DNA of 48,526 nucleotides, taken from positions 1 to 48,526 of the forward strand of contig JAFDAS010000012.1 in NCBI GenBank assembly GCA_019313695.1. Reading direction: 5' to 3'. The notes under the pieces are model-generated. The model was not told where the DNA came from and did no database searches. It worked only from the letters and a program-made list of their open reading frames with translations. A program made the position numbers and the translations under genes. Positions 4,396 to 48,526 of the stretch are shown here, in pieces. The stretch's first letter is position 1. Each line of letters opens with the position of its first letter. This stretch comes from Deltaproteobacteria bacterium (GTDB lineage: Bacteria; Desulfobacterota; Syntrophia; Syntrophales; UBA2210).

Positions 4396-4460
4396 GGAAG
4401 AACACGCCCCCGTTGCTGTTTCGAGGCCGGGGAATAAAAACCGCCGGGAGACCAATCTAA

Positions 4461-4484
4461 AAACAGGGACAGCTGTCCCTGTTT
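4461..4484. repeat. Perfect 24-bp palindrome (repeat family 2) upstream of the acyltransferase
   Basis: AAACAGGGACAG followed immediately by its exact reverse complement. It lies 13 bp upstream of the acyltransferase ATG and overlaps or abuts its ribosome-binding site (AGGAG at 4485-4489). It shares its arm with the elements at 2289-2471 and 6407-6471. It could act as a hairpin at the mRNA 5' end or as a protein-binding site. Confidence 0.75.
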
Positions 4485-4497
4485 AGGAGACGAAAGT

Positions 4498-6294
4498 ATG
4501 ACAAACAAAACCTTTGATTTACAGAAAGCATTACCTTCACTGCCGATTCCAGATCTTGACAATACATGTGAAAAGTTTTTGACATGGGTTAACCCGATGC
4601 TCAATGAAGAGGACTTTAAACAAACCAGACAGATTGTTGATGATTTCAGGCGGGAGGGAGGAGACGGACAAAAATTGCAACAGAAGCTTCTTGCATGGGC
4701 TGAAAAAGAGGATGTATCTAACTGGCTGGAATCATTCTGGAGTGATACTTATCTATCATATCGAAAACCTCTTTGCATTAATAATAATGTTTTTTATCTT
4801 TTTGACGATATCCCGGAATTTAAAAGCCTCACCTCTATTGAACAAGCGGCTTTATATATAAATTCAATTCTTAAATTCAAGAAACTCATTGATAGTGAAC
4901 AATTGGAAATAGATATGGAGCGGGACACGCCCTTATGTATGAATCAATACCGAAAACTGTTTGCTGCTACACGTATACCCCAAAAATCTACTGATACAAC
5001 AAGAAGTCCGTTTTCAGAACAAGATACCGGTTCAGGTGATGCAAAGCATATAGTTGTTTTCTATAAAGGGCAGATATTTAAACTAAATGTGATTTCTCAG
5101 ACAGGGGGGATGAGAGTACAGGAAGAGATTTTAAAAGATCTCCAATTGATTGTTGATACAGTAGAAAACAACAACTCAAATCAGAAACCCATAGGCATTT
5201 TAACAACTCTTCCTCGTGATGAATGGGCAAATGCCCGCAATCTTTTGATTGAAGCACATCCACAAAACAGTTCCATGCTTGATATTATTGAAACGGCACT
5301 TTTTTCAGTTTGTATGGATGATGCTCTGCCGGAAGATTTAACTGAAATTGCAAGAACAATGATGCATGGTAATGGTCTGAACAGGTGGTTTGACAAATCT
5401 TTTCAGCTTATAATCTGCAAAAATGGTAAAACAGGCATAAATTCTGAACATTCCGGTCTTGACGGTTCGGTTATTGGAAGATTGTTAAAATTTATTGCTA
5501 ATGACAGACACAACTTAGAATGGCGGCAGGATATCAATATTGATAATCAGATAACGAGCCTTAGATTTCAACTGAATAAAGAGCTGGAGGAATTTATTGT
5601 ACATGCAAAAAAACTTTTTGATTCTGCGGTTGAGAATACTCATGTAAATATTTTGCAATTCAAAAATTTTGGTAAAAGCGAAATAAAAACCATGAGAATC
5701 AGTCCGGACGCGTTTGTTCAGCTATCAATTCAGCTTGCCCAATACAAATTTTTCAAAAGATGCTTTAATACGTATGAACCTGTTATGACGAGAAAATTTC
5801 TTCATGGTCGAACCGAAGCTGTACGTACAATGACAGAAGCTTCTATTGCCTTTGTCAAGAACATATCTTTAGATTCTGATGACAGCCATTCCGTGAAACT
5901 ACTCAGAGAAGCTGCAAAAGAACATATATCAAGGTTGGCTGACTGTAAGTCCGGTATGGGAATTCAGAGACATATGCTTGGCCTGATAAATATGTATAAG
6001 CTTTTTGGAAAAGACCTGAATATTAACTCAATGCCCGAAATATTTACAGACACAGGCTGGGCTACAATAACTCACGATACATTCTCAACCAGCACTTCTG
6101 ATGCTGCAGGCCTTGCAATGGCTGGTTATGGACCTGTTGTGGACGATGGTTTCGGAATCAGATATGTTACTAAAAATGATTTTATAATGTTTTGTCTCTC
6201 CAGTAGAAGTAAAAACAAAGATCAACTGAAAGCAATTTCAAAATGTTTAAATGAATCTCTTCTTGAAATATCTTCACTACTTAAGAACAAATAG
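4498..6294 (+). CDS. Choline/carnitine O-acyltransferase family protein
   Basis: A 598-residue protein with the hallmarks of the choline/carnitine acyltransferase family, which moves acyl groups between CoA and carnitine or choline and is mainly eukaryotic. Visible are the catalytic His in NSEHSGLDGSV (H318), RTEAVRT after FLHG (438-444), the RHMLGL helix (491-496), the STS-type motif in TFSTSTSDA (528-536) and GYGPVVDDGFGIRY (543-556). The length matches carnitine acetyltransferase and there is no targeting signal or membrane segment, so a cytoplasmic enzyme is expected. AGGAGACGAAAGT precedes the ATG. The gene is clearly A/T-richer than its neighbours and bracketed by family 2 palindromes (4461-4484, 6407-6471), which suggests transfer. 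Carnitine versus choline or another alcohol acceptor cannot be decided. Confidence 0.9.
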   Translation: MTNKTFDLQKALPSLPIPDLDNTCEKFLTWVNPMLNEEDFKQTRQIVDDFRREGGDGQKLQQKLLAWAEKEDVSNWLESFWSDTYLSYRKPLCINNNVFYLFDDIPEFKSLTSIEQAALYINSILKFKKLIDSEQLEIDMERDTPLCMNQYRKLFAATRIPQKSTDTTRSPFSEQDTGSGDAKHIVVFYKGQIFKLNVISQTGGMRVQEEILKDLQLIVDTVENNNSNQKPIGILTTLPRDEWANARNLLIEAHPQNSSMLDIIETALFSVCMDDALPEDLTEIARTMMHGNGLNRWFDKSFQLIICKNGKTGINSEHSGLDGSVIGRLLKFIANDRHNLEWRQDINIDNQITSLRFQLNKELEEFIVHAKKLFDSAVENTHVNILQFKNFGKSEIKTMRISPDAFVQLSIQLAQYKFFKRCFNTYEPVMTRKFLHGRTEAVRTMTEASIAFVKNISLDSDDSHSVKLLREAAKEHISRLADCKSGMGIQRHMLGLINMYKLFGKDLNINSMPEIFTDTGWATITHDTFSTSTSDAAGLAMAGYGPVVDDGFGIRYVTKNDFIMFCLSSRSKNKDQLKAISKCLNESLLEISSLLKNK

Positions 6295-6314
6295 GAACAA
6301 ATAGGAACAAATAG
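6285..6314 (+). repeat. Tandem 10-bp repeat (three copies) at the acyltransferase stop codon
   Basis: GAACAAATAG is repeated three times head to tail, the first copy carrying the TAG stop. A similar two-copy 10-bp repeat, CATCAAATAG, lies at 6393-6412 next to the family 2 element. These look like slippage or element-junction duplications. Confidence 0.8.
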
Positions 6315-6321
6315 GATGCTT

Positions 6322-6389
6322 TCGTAAAAAGTCTGTCATTCCCGTTTCCACGGGAATGACAAGATTGTGTGTATTTCGACTTTTTACGA
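6322..6389. repeat. Family 1 hairpin repeat, short copy
   Basis: Outer ends TCGTAAAAAGTC (6322-6333) and GACTTTTTACGA (6378-6389) are perfect inverted repeats. Inside them TGTCATTCCCG (6334-6344) pairs with CGGGAATGACA (6351-6361) around a 6-nt loop. It is the simplest copy in the window, with a single inner hairpin, and lies in the 315-bp gap between the acyltransferase and the FecR-domain gene. Confidence 0.85.
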
Positions 6390-6406
6390 GTCCATCAAAT
6401 AGCATC

Positions 6407-6471
6407 AAATAGGGACGCCCTTTTTTATTAAAGGATATTGGGGATGGGAATAAAGGGCGATGTCCCTATTT
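6407..6471. repeat. Family 2 palindromic element, 65 bp
   Basis: AAATAGGGAC (6407-6416) pairs with GTCCCTATTT (6462-6471). Immediately inside, GCCCTTT (6417-6423) pairs with AAAGGGC (6452-6458), leaving a 3-nt bulge. With the copy at 4461-4484 it brackets the acyltransferase gene. Confidence 0.75.
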
Positions 6472-6544
6472 TAAGCTCAATTATTTGGCCATCTTCTTGG
6501 CAGCGCCGGAGCTTTGTGTTATACAATCGCGTAAGCTGTCAAGT

Positions 6545-6569
6545 AAAGTGATCTATGCAATATCACTTT
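6545..6569. promoter_or_regulatory. Inverted repeat upstream of the FecR-domain gene
   Basis: AAAGTGAT (6545-6552) pairs with ATCACTTT (6562-6569) across 9 nt, 40 bp before the ATG at 6610. It could be an operator or a hairpin in the leader. A strong ribosome-binding site (AAGGAGG) follows at about 6599-6605. Its function is unproven. Confidence 0.4.
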
Positions 6570-6609
6570 TTATGAATCTCTCATTATTTGTATAGGTCAA
6601 GGAGGAAAC

Positions 6610-7452
6610 ATGAAAAAGTATCTTGCAATTACAGCCTGTTTTATTGTTCTGGGCGCACTGTTTCCCCTGGTGGCTCAGGCGGCGCCGGTGGGGAAGTTCA
6701 CCTATATTGCAGGCAAGGTGGATATTATAAGCTCCGGTAAGGCAGTCAAGTCCGCCAAGATGCAGGAAGATGTGCATAAGGGCGATGTTATCCAGGTAAA
6801 GAAAGAGTCAAAGGCGGAGATCACCTTTCTGGATGATAGCGTCCTGCGCATTGCTCCAGACACCCGGGTCGAAATTTCCGAGTATTTTGTGGGAGAGGGG
6901 CGAGTCGTTGGAATTCTCAATCTGGCCGCGGGGAAAATTCAGAGTACGGTAAGAAAAACGTTCGGGATGGTGTTTGGACTCAAGAATCAGAGCCGGTTTG
7001 AGATCCATACGCCAACCGCGGTTATCGGAGTAAGGGGAACTGATTTTTTTACCTCTTTTCTGGCAGGAATAACAGAAGCGGTATTTAAAAAAGAGAAGGG
7101 ATATATCTTCAGCCTGAATCTGCCCGACATTGTCGAATATATCAATACGGGAGAGAAGGGAAGGGTTGTAAGTCCTGATCGGGCTCCCTCGGTATCAGAG
7201 GCTACCGCTGCTGAAATCAACGCGCTTACGCAGGAACTCGCTCCGTGGGGAAAGAGTGAAGAAGATAAGATAAAAGATATAATCAAAGACATAAAAAGCG
7301 AAATTTTAAATCACCCTGCACATTACGGGCATCTGGATAAAAATACAATATTACACTACTTCGGACTGACTTCCCAACTCGAAAAAGCGGAAGGGGATCT
7401 TGGTGATGCTGAGGCCGAAACCAGGGGTAGAGGAGACGGAGGAGGCGGGTGA
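6610..7452 (+). CDS. Secreted FecR-domain protein
   Basis: A 280-residue exported protein. Residues 1-25 form a Sec signal peptide ending in VAQAA. A FecR domain follows (about 27-150): KFTYIAGKVDI, a VHKGDVIQVKKESKAEITF strand pair, SVLRIAPDTRVEI, and the hallmark HTPTAVIGVRGTDF (133-146). The C-terminal part is charged and helical and ends in a glycine/acidic tail. Stand-alone FecR-domain proteins of this type are periplasmic or surface-associated; they are not the inner-membrane anti-sigma factor FecR, and no sigma factor or TonB receptor gene is nearby. AAGGAGG gives a strong start. The role is unknown. Confidence 0.85.
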   Translation: MKKYLAITACFIVLGALFPLVAQAAPVGKFTYIAGKVDIISSGKAVKSAKMQEDVHKGDVIQVKKESKAEITFLDDSVLRIAPDTRVEISEYFVGEGRVVGILNLAAGKIQSTVRKTFGMVFGLKNQSRFEIHTPTAVIGVRGTDFFTSFLAGITEAVFKKEKGYIFSLNLPDIVEYINTGEKGRVVSPDRAPSVSEATAAEINALTQELAPWGKSEEDKIKDIIKDIKSEILNHPAHYGHLDKNTILHYFGLTSQLEKAEGDLGDAEAETRGRGDGGGG

Positions 7453-7579
7453 CAATAGTACGGCGCTTCCCAGGGTTGGGAAGAGAAGGGCACTTTGTTA
7501 CTCCAGATACACATATTTTGATGGCTGATAATATCTTCAAACATATCATCGATATGGAAATTAAAAAGAGGTATGAGCT

Positions 7580-8164
7580 ATGAGACATATTTTTAAAACG
7601 GGTGCATTTGTTATTACTGTGGCCTTGATTTTCGCGGGGATTTTTCAAATATCGGGTTGCAGCGCGATAAAAGGTCATGTAGCGCTGAATATGGGAAAAA
7701 TGGCGTATGATAAGAAGGATTATGTAACTGCGGTGAAGAAGTATCAGGAAAGTGCCGCAGGGGGCAATATCGCGGCCCAGTATCGCCTTGCCTGCATGTA
7801 TTCTGCCGGGCAGGGTATCTCCAGTGACCAGGCCATAGCCGAAAAGTGGATGAGGTCTTCTGCCGGGCAGGGTTATCCTCCTGCCCAGTTTGTCCTCGGC
7901 CTCTGGTATCTGGCTGGAATCGGCGTCGATCGGAACGAAGTAAAAGCGGTTGAGTGGCTCAGGAAAGCCGCTGATCAAAAGGAGAAATTTGCCCAGTATC
8001 ACCTGGGTCTGGTGTATGCCACAGGCAGGGGTGTTCCCAAAAATCCCGACGAAGCCCTGAAGTGGTTCCGTCTTGCTTCAGCAAATGGTTGCCCCGTGCC
8101 GAAGGACTTCCTGACTAAAGAAGGTATTTCCAGGCTTGGCGAGGCAAAGGTTACAGAGCCGTAA
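7580..8164 (+). CDS. Sel1-repeat lipoprotein
   Basis: A 194-residue protein with a lipoprotein signal peptide (lipobox ISGC, Cys27) followed by Sel1/TPR-like repeats of about 36 residues. AAQYRLACMYSAGQGI, PPAQFVLGLWYLAGIGV and FAQYHLGLVYATGRGV mark three units, with a preceding partial unit (KKDYVTAVKKYQESA). Sel1 repeats are alpha-alpha solenoids used in protein-protein contacts. AAAGAGG precedes the ATG. It follows the FecR-domain gene by 127 bp on the same strand, so both may form one envelope-associated unit. Its partner is unknown. Confidence 0.88.
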   Translation: MRHIFKTGAFVITVALIFAGIFQISGCSAIKGHVALNMGKMAYDKKDYVTAVKKYQESAAGGNIAAQYRLACMYSAGQGISSDQAIAEKWMRSSAGQGYPPAQFVLGLWYLAGIGVDRNEVKAVEWLRKAADQKEKFAQYHLGLVYATGRGVPKNPDEALKWFRLASANGCPVPKDFLTKEGISRLGEAKVTEP

Positions 8165-8265
8165 AAAACCCTTCGCTTAAGTGTCAAATGCTCAATTTTG
8201 AACTGATCTTGACAAATCGGGGAGACGCCATACCTGTTCAACGATTGTTAAAGACCGCGCATAAA

Positions 8266-8577
8266 TCATTTCCCTGTCAGGTAATGCGCACTCGACAGGA
8301 CAGGATGCCGGTAAAGCATGCGTGGGCCGGCATATTTCATTGCTGCCCTGATCTTTTTCCTCATATCCGGTTTGTAACAGTGTACAGTGCATTTGGCGCA
8401 CTTCGGTTTGTTCTCCTGGAAGGGGCACTTTTCAAGGCGTTGCACAACGTAGTCCAGAAGCTCCCGGCACTCGGAACAGAGGCCTTCTTTATTACCATGT
8501 TGTCCATGGCAGAAGATCTCAATCATCGCCTCAGCTGTTCTGCTTTCCAACTCCATTTTTGAATGATCGTCAGACAT
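8266..8577 (-). CDS. YgbA-like protein of the nitrosative-stress-associated family
   Basis: A 103-residue cysteine-rich protein matching the family of E. coli YgbA, whose promoter responds to nitric oxide. The conserved core is clear: MIEIFCHGQHG, LCSECRELLDYV, RLEKCPFQENKPKCAKCTVHCYKP, MRKKIRAAMKYAGPRML and HP. Seven or more cysteines suggest metal or Fe-S binding. The ATG at 8577 is used; an in-frame GTG at 8601 would add eight residues, and neither has a good ribosome-binding site. The gene sits at the end of a minus-strand group with hcp and a double ferredoxin, which strengthens a nitrosative-stress role. The biochemical function of the family is not established to my knowledge. Confidence 0.85.
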   Translation of the reverse strand: MSDDHSKMELESRTAEAMIEIFCHGQHGNKEGLCSECRELLDYVVQRLEKCPFQENKPKCAKCTVHCYKPDMRKKIRAAMKYAGPRMLYRHPVLSSAHYLTGK

Positions 8578-8602
8578 AATATGATAACCGCAAAAATTCA
8601 CC

Positions 8603-8616
8603 TGACATCTTTGTCA
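8603..8616. promoter_or_regulatory. Candidate operator palindrome upstream of the ygbA-like gene
   Basis: TGACA-tctt-TGTCA is a perfect 5-4-5 palindrome 25 bp upstream of the ATG at 8577. The spacing matches Crp/Fnr-family boxes, although the half-site is shifted relative to TTGAC. It might be read by the Crp/Fnr regulator at 12105. Low certainty. Confidence 0.3.
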
Positions 8617-8669
8617 TCAAGTTTGCCTGCGTTACCCTTTTTATCCGCCAACTGGCAGGATTGTTTGAG

Positions 8670-8759
8670 TCATGTGGATATCCCCATCCGGGGTAGGATA
8701 TAGGCCTGGAGCGCATACCAGACGGCAACGATCCCAAGCAGGATTAATATCTCCTTCAT
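8670..8759 (-). CDS. 29-residue single-span membrane peptide
   Basis: This short gene encodes 29 residues with an excellent ribosome-binding site (GGAGGT, 8 nt before the ATG at 8759). The protein starts MKE, has one hydrophobic segment, ILILLGIVAVWYALQAYILP, and ends RMGIST. The strong initiation signal and clean transmembrane profile argue that it is real. It lies between the ygbA-like gene and the double ferredoxin-hcp genes on the same strand, so it may belong to the same stress response. I do not recognise a named family. Confidence 0.6.
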   Translation of the reverse strand: MKEILILLGIVAVWYALQAYILPRMGIST

Positions 8760-8784
8760 AACGTAAGTACCTCCATAACGATCT

Positions 8785-8912
8785 TTGATGCATTCGTAAA
8801 AAGTTAAAAGTCGAGTCACTCCCGCGAAGGCGGGAGTCCATAACCACTTGAAAGAACTGGATTCCCGCTTCCGCGGGAATGACAAAAAGGGTATAAATTT
8901 GACTTCTTACGA
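8785..8912. repeat. Family 1 repeat, two-hairpin copy
   Basis: It begins TTGATGCATTCGTAAAAAGT (8785-8804) and ends GACTTCTTACGA (8901-8912), a slightly diverged copy of the ends. Two inner hairpins are present: ACTCCCGCG...CGGGAGT (8818-8837) and ATTCCCGC...GCGGGAAT (8861-8880). It separates the small membrane peptide gene from the upstream ferredoxin gene. Confidence 0.8.
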
Positions 8913-8973
8913 ACTTGCTGTCTTTGTGTCGGGGAAGAATAAGTTTGTCCTTTCTTCCCTTCTCCCTGATTTC

Positions 8974-9723
8974 TTATGAGCGTGTCAAGATCTTTCCTCT
9001 TGTGCTTAACACCACCTCTTCCATTGGTATTTCCCTGTCTGCTGCCTCCATTCCTTTTTTCACTATCATGGGAAGGCCGGAACAGCAGGGAACCTCCATG
9101 ACAACAGTAGTAACGCTCTTAATGTCCGCGGTTCTGAAAATATCCGCGAATCTGTTTATGTAATCCTGGACGTCGTCGAATTTCGGGCATCCCATCATGA
9201 CCACTTTCCCTTTCAGCAGATCCCGGTGAAGAGTGGGAAAGGCGACTGCCGTGCAGTCCGCAAGCACAAGGAGGTCGGCGTTCTTGAGAAAAGGGGCGCT
9301 CGCTGGTACAAGTCTTATCTGGACAGGCCAGTGAGTGAGAAATGATTCGCCGCCGCTTTCCACGATATCCGCAGGCCTGTTTGCCTCCTGGCAGGATGCG
9401 AATGTTTCAAAGGTCTGGATATTAGTTGACGGGCATCCGCATGGCAGGGTGTTTATTTTGTCACCCGGATCGCTTCCTCTTTCGGTAAGATGTTTATTGA
9501 CCTGCTCTTTGTCAAATTCTTCCGCTTCCCGTTCAATTATCCTGAGCGCCCCGGTGGGGCATTCTCCCACGCAGTCACCAAGACCGTCGCAATATCTGTC
9601 CGCGACGACCCGCGCCTTGCCGTCAATGATCTGCAAGGCGCCCTCGGCGCACCCGGGCACGCATTGCCCGCACCCGTCACACAGTTCTTCATCAATCTCA
9701 ATTATTTTACGTAATATTTTCAT
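8974..9723 (-). CDS. Double [4Fe-4S] ferredoxin-domain protein linked to hcp
   Basis: A 249-residue iron-sulfur protein. The N-terminal ~60 residues hold two ferredoxin-type motifs, CDGCGQCVPGC and CDGLGDCVGECP, for two [4Fe-4S] clusters. The remainder (about 90-249) has conserved cysteines in LPCGCPS, FASCQEA, MMGCPKFDD and VPCCSGLP, suggesting another cofactor or a thiol-active site. AAGGTGAT precedes the ATG. It lies 19 bp downstream of hcp, so it is probably co-transcribed and supplies electrons to the hybrid-cluster protein, the role played by Hcr in enterobacteria. The partner assignment is inferred from position. Confidence 0.85.
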   Translation of the reverse strand: MKILRKIIEIDEELCDGCGQCVPGCAEGALQIIDGKARVVADRYCDGLGDCVGECPTGALRIIEREAEEFDKEQVNKHLTERGSDPGDKINTLPCGCPSTNIQTFETFASCQEANRPADIVESGGESFLTHWPVQIRLVPASAPFLKNADLLVLADCTAVAFPTLHRDLLKGKVVMMGCPKFDDVQDYINRFADIFRTADIKSVTTVVMEVPCCSGLPMIVKKGMEAADREIPMEEVVLSTRGKILTRS

Positions 9724-18752: not shown

Positions 18753-18868
18753 TCGTAAAAAGTCAAAATATGCACAATTTTGTCATTCCCGTGAAAACGG
18801 GAATCCAGTTTTTCGGTGCTTAGCCCTCCATGGATTCCCGCCTACGCGGGAATGACAGACTTTTACGA
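18753..18868. repeat. Family 1 repeat, two-hairpin copy
   Basis: It runs from TCGTAAAAAGTC (18753-18764) to GACTTTTACGA (18858-18868, one T short). The first inner hairpin has arms TTCCCGT and ACGGGAA (about 18786-18802); the second arm pair is TTCCCGCC/GCGGGAA (about 18834-18852). It is followed by TCAAACTTTGAC (18874-18885), which recurs after the next copy (19014-19025). Confidence 0.85.
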
Positions 18869-18889
18869 GTGTATCAAACTTTGACGAAC

Positions 18890-19007
18890 TCGTAAAAAGT
18901 CCCAAAAACGTCATGCCGGACTTGATCCGGCATCCAGAACATATTGAAATTACTGGATTCCGACTTCCGCCGGAATGACAAAAAATGGTGTTTTCTGACT
19001 TTTTACT
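18890..19007. repeat. Family 1 repeat, variant with GTCATGCCGGA arm
   Basis: It begins TCGTAAAAAGTC (18890-18901) and ends GACTTTTTACT (18997-19007), in tandem with the previous copy. Its interior (GTCATGCCGGAC...GATCCGGCATCC, then AACATATTGAAATTACTGGA) is nearly the same as the copy at 25056-25197. These two copies fill most of the 409-bp gap before the CoA-disulfide reductase gene. Confidence 0.85.
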
Positions 19008-26372: not shown

Positions 26373-26605
26373 GACGGGCTCCTTTTGTTGATGCGATAAT
26401 GACGTTGATCATCCTTCTGAGCTGCTTGTATTTGTATCAAATTCCATGATGCCTGTCAAAGCACTTGAAGGGCGGCATTGAAATAGTGTTTGACATTATG
26501 AGACTGTCATGAAATGGTAACTGGCTTGGTTTATGGGAGCGGAGGGCCATCTGTGGCATTTAGTTTATGCTCCTTTGAATTCGGGTAGTTACAAGGAAGA
26601 TGGAC
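26373..26605. other. Intergenic sequence between the phosphorylase and a family 1 repeat
   Basis: With the repeat that follows, this forms a 395-bp gap before bamD. TTGACA occurs at 26490-26495 but no good -10 is at the right distance. No gene or stable hairpin was recognised in this part. Confidence 0.5.
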
Positions 26606-26742
26606 TCGTAAAAAGTCGAAATATACACAATTTTGTCATTCCCGTGAAAACGGGAATCCAGTGTTTTTAAGTAGTTATGCGCTTCTGGATTCCCGCCTGC
26701 GCGGGAATGACAGCCTGCGCGGGAATGACAGACTTTTTACGA
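26606..26742. repeat. Family 1 repeat, two-hairpin copy with an 18-bp tandem duplication
   Basis: TCGTAAAAAGTC (26606-26617) and GACTTTTTACGA (26731-26742) bound the element, with AAGCATCA just outside. The interior resembles 18753-18868. CCTGCGCGGGAATGACAG occurs twice head to tail (26696-26713, 26714-26731), so one hairpin arm is duplicated. It ends 25 bp before the bamD start. Confidence 0.88.
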
Positions 26743-26767
26743 AAGCATCAAGGAAGGTGCTATCGAT

Positions 26768-46558: not shown

Positions 46559-48526
46559 CTATACCCGGAATACCTTTCTGGTTTTGAACTCTTCCTGCTT
46601 CCCTTTGTTCCACTGTTTTACCGGGCGCAGATAACCAACCACGCGGGAAAAGACTTCGCAGGGTGCCTCACATGTCGGACATGTAGATTGCTCTCCATTG
46701 AGATAGCCGTGATTTGGACACACGCTGAAGGTAGGGGAAAAGGTGAAGTAGGGGAGGTGGTATTTGTCGCATACCTTGCGCACCAGCACCTTTACTGCGG
46801 AAGGATCCTCAATACGCTCACCCGCATAGATGTGGAAGACCGTTCCCCCCGTATATCTGGTCTGAATATCATCCTGGAGATCCAGCGCTTCGAAGATGTC
46901 ATCGGTGAAGTTTACGGGAAGCTGGGTAGAGTTGGTATAAAATTCCGACATGGCGGGACTGTCTCCGTTTTGGGGGGCGCAGATGATATCGGGGTATTTC
47001 TCTTTGTCTTTCCTGGCGAGGCTGTAAGATGTTCCTTCCGCCGGGGTCGCTTCAAGATTGTAGTTATTCCCGGTTTCCTCCTGGAATTCAAGCAGCCTGT
47101 TCCTCATGAAATCGAGTATTCTTTCTGTAAATTTCTGTCCTTTGGGATCGGCTATATTCTTTCCTATGAGATTGAGACACGCCTCATTCATTCCCACGAG
47201 ACCTATCGTGGAAAAATGGTTCTTCCAGTACTCACCGAAACGTTCCTTCACATCCCTGAGATAGTATTTTGTGTAGGGGTACAGATCCCTGTCAGTGAAT
47301 TTTTCGAGCACCTTCCGTTTTATTTCAAGACTTTCCTTTGCCAGGAGCATCAGGTGGTCAACCCGCTCAATAAATTCATCTTCCGTTTTTGAAAGATACC
47401 CGATTCTTGGCATGTTGATTGTTATTACGCCGATGGAACCGGTCAGGGGATTGGATCCGAAAAGACCGCCGCCTCTTTTCTCAAGCTCTCTGTTATCTAT
47501 CCTCAGTCTGCAGCACATGCTTCTTGCGTCTTCCGGATTCATGTCGGAATTGACAAAATTTGAGAAGTAGGGCACCCCGTATTTTGCCGTCATTTCCCAC
47601 AAATAGTCGAGATCGGGATTGTCCCAGTCGAAATCCGCAGTGATATTATATGTGGGAATCGGGAAAGTAAAAACACGTCCTTTGGCATCACCTTCGGCCA
47701 TTACCTGGAGAAAGGCCTTGTTGAACATGGCCATCTCTTCCTGAAATTCCTTATATGTTTCGTTCTGAGGTTCCCCCCCTATAATAACGCCCTGATCGGC
47801 ATAGTACTTCGGTACTTTTACATCCAGTGTGACATTGGTAAAGGGTGTCTGGAACCCCACACGTGTTGGAACATTTATATTGAAGATAAATTCCTGAAGG
47901 GCCTGTTTTACTTCCTTGAACCCGAGGTTGTCGTATCTTATGAAAGGAGCGAGGAGTGTGTCGAAATTTGAGAATGCCTGCGCGCCTGCTGCCTCCCCCT
48001 GCAGGGTATAGAAGAAATTGACTACCTGTCCAAGGGCGCTGCGGAGATGCTTTGCGGGCTTGCTTTCCACTTTTCCGGAAGCTCCCTGGAAGCCTTCTAT
48101 CAGGAGGTCATCACCATTCATCTGAGCGTTTTTGATTTCATCGGGATATATTTTGTTTAACCAGTAGACCTTGCTCACCTCGGAGGAGAGATAGTTGTTC
48201 AACCCCTGGAGGGAATAATCCATATTGCTGTTTTCATTTATCTTCCAGTCAAGCTTTCCCAGGTACTGGTCTACAAGATCAACCTCCATTTTGTTGGTAA
48301 TTTCTCTCAGTCTTGCGTGTTGATCCCTGTATATTATATATGACTTGGCAGTCTTGCGGTATGAAGAACCAAGGAGTACCTCTTCAACTATATCCTGTAT
48401 CTCTTCAACAGTCATGATCTTGTTGTCGAAAAGCTTCTCAGCCAGGTTCAGCGCCTTTATTGTAAGTTTTTTCGCTTCTCTTTCGCCGAATTCATCGGTT
48501 GCCATTCCCGCCTTTGCGATAGCGCT
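46559..48526 (-). CDS. nrdD: Anaerobic ribonucleoside-triphosphate reductase NrdD, 5' end outside window
   Basis: At least 655 residues; the frame continues past the window edge, so the ATG at 48505 is internal (upstream residues read AIAKAG, as expected in an ATP-cone). The N-terminal part is the ATP-cone regulatory domain (VEEVLLGSSYRKTAKSYIIYRDQHARLREI), and the barrel follows (FQTPFTNVTLDV, FTFPIPTYNIT, PYFSNFVNSDMNPEDARSMCCRLRID, GSIGVITINMPRIGYL). Near the end are FSVCPNHGYLNGEQSTCPTCE zinc ligands and the glycyl radical site RVVGYL, about 25 residues from the C-terminus. It makes deoxynucleotides anaerobically with NrdG. Confidence 0.95.
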   Translation of the reverse strand, partial: SAIAKAGMATDEFGEREAKKLTIKALNLAEKLFDNKIMTVEEIQDIVEEVLLGSSYRKTAKSYIIYRDQHARLREITNKMEVDLVDQYLGKLDWKINENSNMDYSLQGLNNYLSSEVSKVYWLNKIYPDEIKNAQMNGDDLLIEGFQGASGKVESKPAKHLRSALGQVVNFFYTLQGEAAGAQAFSNFDTLLAPFIRYDNLGFKEVKQALQEFIFNINVPTRVGFQTPFTNVTLDVKVPKYYADQGVIIGGEPQNETYKEFQEEMAMFNKAFLQVMAEGDAKGRVFTFPIPTYNITADFDWDNPDLDYLWEMTAKYGVPYFSNFVNSDMNPEDARSMCCRLRIDNRELEKRGGGLFGSNPLTGSIGVITINMPRIGYLSKTEDEFIERVDHLMLLAKESLEIKRKVLEKFTDRDLYPYTKYYLRDVKERFGEYWKNHFSTIGLVGMNEACLNLIGKNIADPKGQKFTERILDFMRNRLLEFQEETGNNYNLEATPAEGTSYSLARKDKEKYPDIICAPQNGDSPAMSEFYTNSTQLPVNFTDDIFEALDLQDDIQTRYTGGTVFHIYAGERIEDPSAVKVLVRKVCDKYHLPYFTFSPTFSVCPNHGYLNGEQSTCPTCEAPCEVFSRVVGYLRPVKQWNKGKQEEFKTRKVFRV

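Follow-up and report, generated by a model that had tools for sequence, protein, structure and literature searches.

Carnitine acyltransferases are textbook eukaryotic enzymes, and their family, PF00755, is best known from eukaryotes. The closest described systems are mammalian CrAT (PDB 1nm8, 1t7n), CPT2 (PDB 2h4t, 4eyw), and ChAT (PDB 2fy2), together with PF00755 enzymes of anaerobic bacteria. The window considered here, the whole stretch of 48,526 nucleotides analyzed from a deltaproteobacterium of the Syntrophales, carries an intact ORF at positions 4498-6294 of the forward strand, encoding 598 amino acids with zero internal stops and preceded by an AGGAG ribosome-binding site approximately 8 nt 5' of its ATG. 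The product is a member of the choline/carnitine acyltransferase family. The PF00755 profile spans residues 15-585 (E 5.2e-178; 593.6 bits against a curated cut-off of 22.3), and solved carnitine acetyltransferases match the protein at E ~1e-88; none of the NCBIfam models matched the enzyme at E 1e-10. An AlphaFold model built from an input of 25 bacterial sequences (pLDDT 93.2, pTM 0.92) predicts the two-domain acyltransferase fold and superimposes on CrAT with a TM of 0.92 (Z 47; 579 residues aligned; rmsd 1.7 Å). The enzyme is the single PF00755 copy in the host genome.

Comparison with described acyltransferases

The protein was aligned with human CrAT, human ChAT, rat CPT2, and mouse COT, with the last three rows representing the letters of the PDB chains themselves. 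The catalytic E-H motif, with His318 at the position of CrAT His343 (codon 5449-5451, forward strand), the RTE motif at residues 438-440, and the STST motif at residues 530-533 (6085-6096, same strand; CrAT Ser552-Thr553-Ser554) align with all four references, and the CoA-binding lysines of the FGKxxxK motif are retained as K393 and K397. A first-pass annotation of this DNA had described a 598-residue choline/carnitine acyltransferase with the catalytic His, RTE, and STS motifs of the family, a description that is borne out by the intact frame, the full-length profile match, the predicted fold, and the alignment.

Like CrAT, the window protein has the full-length fold, the catalytic His-Glu pair, the CoA lysines, the STS motif, and the three carnitine residues: Tyr426, Thr439, and Arg491 (codon 5968-5970, forward strand) occupy the positions of CrAT Tyr452, Thr465, and Arg518, which are established to hold the carnitine carboxylate, Arg518 by binding it. 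It differs from CrAT in sequence (33% identity), in a shorter loop before the NRWFDK motif, in the lack of an organelle setting, and in the acyl-pocket gate, where Met564-Phe565, with the bulky Met564 of acetyl-specific, short-chain CrAT, is replaced by Ala542-Gly543 (6121-6126, forward strand). This gate is nearly as small as the Gly-Gly of CPT2, an enzyme that also shares the short HGxGxNRWFDKS stretch (HGNGLNRWFDKS in the window protein, HGDGTNRWFDKS in CPT2), the RTE motif, and the STST motif, whereas overall identity to CPT2 is 32% and the CPT2 insert of approximately 30 residues ahead of the PLxMxQY motif is missing. Finally, ChAT resembles the window protein in fold and catalytic residues, but where the window protein has Thr439 and Arg491, matching CrAT Thr465 and Arg518, ChAT carries Val and Asn.

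The retained Tyr426, Thr439, and Arg491, taken with the CPT2-like features, point to carnitine as the most likely acceptor, and the small gate residues, Ala-Gly for Met-Phe, suggest that acyl chains longer than acetyl would be accepted. The first-pass annotation had left the acceptor as carnitine or choline; the residue pattern favors carnitine, and choline is disfavored by the three kept residues and by the absence of the ChAT Val/Asn pair.

The PF00755 enzymes of anaerobes fall in the same clade as the window protein at 35-44% identity. Those compared come from Desulfobacterales (L003), Anaerophilus nitritogenes (L004), Synergistaceae (L005), and Clostridia (L006, L009, and L011). Unlike the window copy, which stands alone between an EamA gene and a FecR gene, several of them have OpuAC-type uptake genes or 2-oxoacid oxidoreductases as linked neighbors, and, unlike the window protein, the Anaerophilus enzyme is missing the carnitine Arg.

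Origin of the gene and its surrounding repeats

The acyltransferase gene has a GC content of 36.6% and a GC3 of 30.9%, against approximately 48-53% GC in its flanks and a GC3 that, in almost every other gene of the window, lies at 46-65%. A change-point fit with two breaks delimits a low-GC block at 4480-6650 (36.8% GC, with flanks at 52.8% and 47.9%), the breaks ranging over 4430-4505 and 6595-6665 within 2 lnL, and confirms the A/T-richness that had been noticed earlier. The gene's codon-usage distance is among the two largest of the 35 window genes, the other being that of a 145-codon ORF. In most bacterial relatives, the composition of the gene is in line with that of its own flanks.

No match to the enzyme was found in the 59 other genomes of a 60-relative set (seven of the same genus, including the host) or in 296 other genomes of the phylum, so that none of the genomes from its own genus or family yielded it; it was also absent from plasmid and phage collections, and viral contigs yielded no confirmed match. 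When 84,980 species genomes were scanned once with two short conserved patterns as seeds, 42 bacterial loci were found, a count that is therefore a lower bound. The enzyme is thus rare in bacteria, as first proposed. Since its composition is foreign and its distribution sporadic (0/59 relatives and 0/296 phylum genomes), horizontal acquisition of the gene is the best reading, and the earlier suggestion that it “arrived” agrees with these data.

The same annotation had called the protein eukaryotic-type, a label that the comparisons do not support. Its nearest matches, at 43-44% identity, come from bacteria, while three mammalian paralogues reach 31-33%. In a tree whose eukaryote sampling consists of four mammalian paralogues, the window protein groups with L003, L004, and six more sequences from Synergistaceae, Syntrophomonadaceae, other Clostridia, and delta proteobacterium ML8_F1, with a support of 97/96 that falls to 87/95 after long branches are removed. 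The four mammalian paralogues are placed outside this clade, and forcing them together with the window protein alone as a clade is rejected (delta lnL 91, p-AU 4e-20). From these comparisons, the near relatives found for the window enzyme can be regarded as settled to be bacterial.

The palindromes around the gene had been read as the brackets of an imported unit. They do exist. A perfect 24-nt palindrome, AAACAGGGACAGCTGTCCCTGTTT, lies at 4461-4484, immediately 5' of the ribosome-binding site, with no second copy within the window. On the 3' side, a MITE-like inverted repeat, TCGTAAAAAGTC...GTCATTCCCG, occupies 6310-6400; it is a native repeat, and copies of its family occur near 8784-8912, 18753-18901, and 26599-26749. 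An imperfect palindrome with 29-nt arms, AAATAGGGACGCCC...GGGCGATGTCCCTATTT, follows at 6401-6477 and belongs to the same family as an element on another contig (G000:C197:15003-15101), with which it has a GCGCCCTTTTTT-type interior in common. The same AAACAGGGACA ends recur in another inverted pair at 2289-2471, which lies between hipA and a radical-SAM gene and thus outside the supposed bracket. Other pairs formed by the end motif, AAAYAGGGACR, occur on contigs C40 and C197, and the motif has 26 exact matches in the genome versus 14 for a reversed-pattern control.

A 19-nt direct repeat, TATGACAAACAAAACCTTT, runs across the start codon at 4497-4515 (forward strand), with its other copy at 2316-2334 and no exact third occurrence of its 18-nt core in the genome. 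The two copies flank the radical-SAM and EamA genes, not the enzyme gene. A second shared piece, GCTGTCCCTGTTTA, is found at 2459-2472 and 4472-4485, and the composition break at 4430-4505 adjoins the 4497-4515 copy. From its position, the 19-nt repeat may be the trace of a 2.2-kb stretch inserted ahead of the enzyme gene, or of a rearrangement. Taken as a whole, the AAAYAGGGACR pair outside the bracket, the 6310-6400 repeat family, and the 19-nt repeat argue against the palindromes as ends of an imported unit; the palindromes belong to multi-copy, native repeat families, and the idea of a bracketed unit is only partly supported.

The remnant inside 2335-2458 had no Pfam family match, and no empty site was found in a relative. 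The EamA gene has one clear homologue among 18 relatives (G009; 54-56% identity), where the enzyme does not adjoin it, and the FecR-Sel1 genes have a homologous pair in G008; neither locus offered a usable empty site. A REP/RAYT origin of the palindromes was also considered but is not claimed: the genome has nine Y1 transposase matches, but the motif does not consistently flank them. Two further observations may be recorded. A GGAACAAATA-type 10-mer occurs three times in tandem across the acyltransferase stop codon at 6282-6316, and positions 48047-48523 of the window, within an anaerobic ribonucleotide reductase gene, share 90-100% identity with the end of contig C49, reflecting either overlap in the assembly or duplication of the gene.

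Gene neighborhoods and the proposed role in the host

A profile search of the window found no uptake transporter of the betaine/carnitine/choline kind and no acyl-CoA gene adjoining the enzyme, which counts against the main reading given below. Among the 42 bacterial relatives, genes for betaine/carnitine/choline ABC uptake adjoin the enzyme gene in 10, spread over five phyla and in several cases arranged as operons (L004, L005, L006, L011, L014, L015, L019, L031, L037, and L038). L014/L015 and L037/L038 are near-identical pairs, leaving eight independent linked loci. The linked genes encode the binding protein, permease, and/or ATPase of OpuA/OpuC/ProX-type systems. For example, the binding-protein gene lies approximately 60 nt upstream of the enzyme gene in L004 and approximately 20 nt upstream in L031, whereas in L005 a permease gene lies approximately 7 nt upstream, with the binding-protein gene further up, all co-directional. 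In L011, a co-directional ATPase-permease-permease-binding protein operon has a second enzyme copy at its end, across a gap of approximately 60 nt. The L006 binding protein has OpuCC, a binder of L-carnitine and choline, as its nearest match in the PDB. Over the 495 kb that the loci cover, one would expect approximately 0.35 such uptake genes, a rough figure in that it uses the density in the host (2 in 2.82 Mb) and other genomes may hold more; the observed excess is large. This genomic link of a bacterial enzyme gene to quaternary-amine uptake genes is new here, and no account of it or of the branch was found in the partial collection of literature on bacterial carnitine acyltransferases that was searched.

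Two loci of the anaerobe clade, L009 and L012, instead have genes for the alpha and beta subunits of a 2-oxoacid:acceptor oxidoreductase beside the enzyme. As a separate observation, the alpha and beta genes follow the acyltransferase gene on the same strand (L009:5956-10439 and L012:5944-10318; 80-87% identical between the two loci). It may also be noted that L011 contains two different carnitine acyltransferase genes (5983-9531) in convergent orientation, the second of which closes the opu-type ABC operon.

The host itself has an OpuA-type ABC locus on contig C49 (an ATPase with a CBS domain, two permeases, and a binding protein) and, on contig C259, an unlinked choline/ProX-like binding protein that is 46% identical, gap-free over its length, to that of L004. 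The latter is present in 6/6 same-genus genomes searched and is therefore native and vertically inherited in the genus. Since these genomes hold the binding protein without the enzyme, any partnership between the two in the host would be one of genome content and not of linkage. No BCCT carnitine transporter was found in the host genome, which has 19 acyl-CoA-dehydrogenase matches.

The activity, considered alone, is likely that of a carnitine O-acyltransferase, transferring acyl groups reversibly from CoA to the carnitine hydroxyl and back, with His318 as the presumed general base. The gene would have come from an AT-rich bacterial source within the anaerobe-enzyme clade. A betaine/carnitine-type ABC system of the host would import acylcarnitines, which the enzyme would convert to acyl-CoA and free carnitine without ATP, and the resulting acyl-CoA could feed the host's many acyl-CoA dehydrogenases and so meet a large capacity for beta-oxidation; in the reverse direction, acyl groups would be parked on carnitine and CoA freed. 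We infer the acceptor, the chain length, the net direction, and the transporter partnership. The whole reading, that of an acquired, working carnitine acyltransferase whose task is to draw acyl-CoA from acylcarnitines taken up by the cell or to buffer CoA, appears reasonably probable. If true, a scattered branch of bacteria would also use carnitine as a carrier of acyl groups, whether these serve as food that arrives already activated or the exchange acts as a “valve” for CoA when ATP is in short supply.

Of these roles, imported acylcarnitines as ready-activated acyl donors are favored, and the main rival is that the enzyme only buffers or stores acyl groups, moving surplus acyl to carnitine taken up as an osmolyte, with no import of acylcarnitines as food; storage or buffering was also the use proposed in the first-pass annotation. 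Family members that have been studied run the reaction both ways, and plain osmolytes are among the imports of binding proteins of the linked type. In addition, the gene downstream of the enzyme in L009 and L012 encodes a 2-oxoacid:acceptor oxidoreductase, an acyl-CoA maker, a neighborhood that also fits the making of acylcarnitines or CoA buffering and so counts against the main reading. Against buffering alone, no acyl-CoA-producing gene adjoins the window copy, and we consider this rival rather unlikely. The main reading is also challenged by L004, the nearest relative, which lacks the Arg and Thr and indicates that acceptor use varies within the clade. In that locus, the neighbors are a binding protein of choline type and a CudC regulator, which could mean that the host enzyme, too, acts on choline or some other quaternary alcohol, but the window protein keeps Tyr426 as well as Thr439 and Arg491, the last two replaced in ChAT by Val and Asn, making such an acceptor improbable.

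Two further explanations concern the source and integrity of the gene. Its sharply different composition, in a draft genome split into 282 contigs and estimated to be 4.2% contaminated, might reflect a decaying or misbinned gene without function in the host; however, the frame is intact, all catalytic residues are retained, and the gene's 3' side bears repeat families found elsewhere in the contig and genome, rendering this explanation very unlikely. A recent transfer from a eukaryote is likewise very unlikely. The family is eukaryote-associated, and nearly the whole of the window protein can be aligned with the four mammalian paralogues, of which three reach 31-33% identity, but the closer bacterial sequences, the clade position, and the AU test all speak against such a transfer, and neither introns nor a targeting extension are seen in the gene.

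Acceptor variation among bacterial relatives

The favored reading, that of a carnitine enzyme in the host, need not extend to every relative. In the L004 enzyme (L004:4976-6745), Ile and Gly stand in for Thr465 and Arg518, and the following conserved Arg (RIEVMY) has been lost. Its gene lies on a plasmid-like 13-kb contig with a Rep3 initiator gene, and 3' of it is a gene for the choline regulator CudC (250.8 bits; cut-off 218). As an observation on the locus, L004:2309-7533 comprises the Rep3 initiator, a choline/ProX-type binding protein, the acyltransferase without the carnitine Arg and Thr, and CudC. The L004 enzyme is accordingly a candidate bacterial choline acyltransferase; with several conserved residues lost, it could instead have a relaxed function. 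More tentatively, and on balance doubtfully, the linked loci might represent a multi-phylum, mobile quaternary-amine ester module, found largely in anaerobes, in which a betaine/carnitine/choline ABC importer and an acyltransferase would together salvage acyl groups in pre-activated form from acylcarnitines or acylcholines, with the acceptor switched within the anaerobe clade and the Anaerophilus copy acting as a choline acyltransferase. The window copy and the L004 enzyme differ in their acceptor residues, and this switch allows a direct carnitine-versus-choline test and bears on which bacterial enzymes might make choline esters.

Other branches also depart from the carnitine pattern. Gln replaces the carnitine Arg (PEQH), with RTE and STS kept, in L013, L016-L019, L021-L023, L034, L036, L042 (Pseudonocardiaceae), and L008, and this Gln-bearing actinobacterial and related branch probably uses a different acceptor. 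Finally, an alphaproteobacterial branch (L020, L024-L026, and L029) has lost the carnitine Tyr/Thr/Arg and the CoA lysines and likely has another function; L020 is also without the catalytic His.
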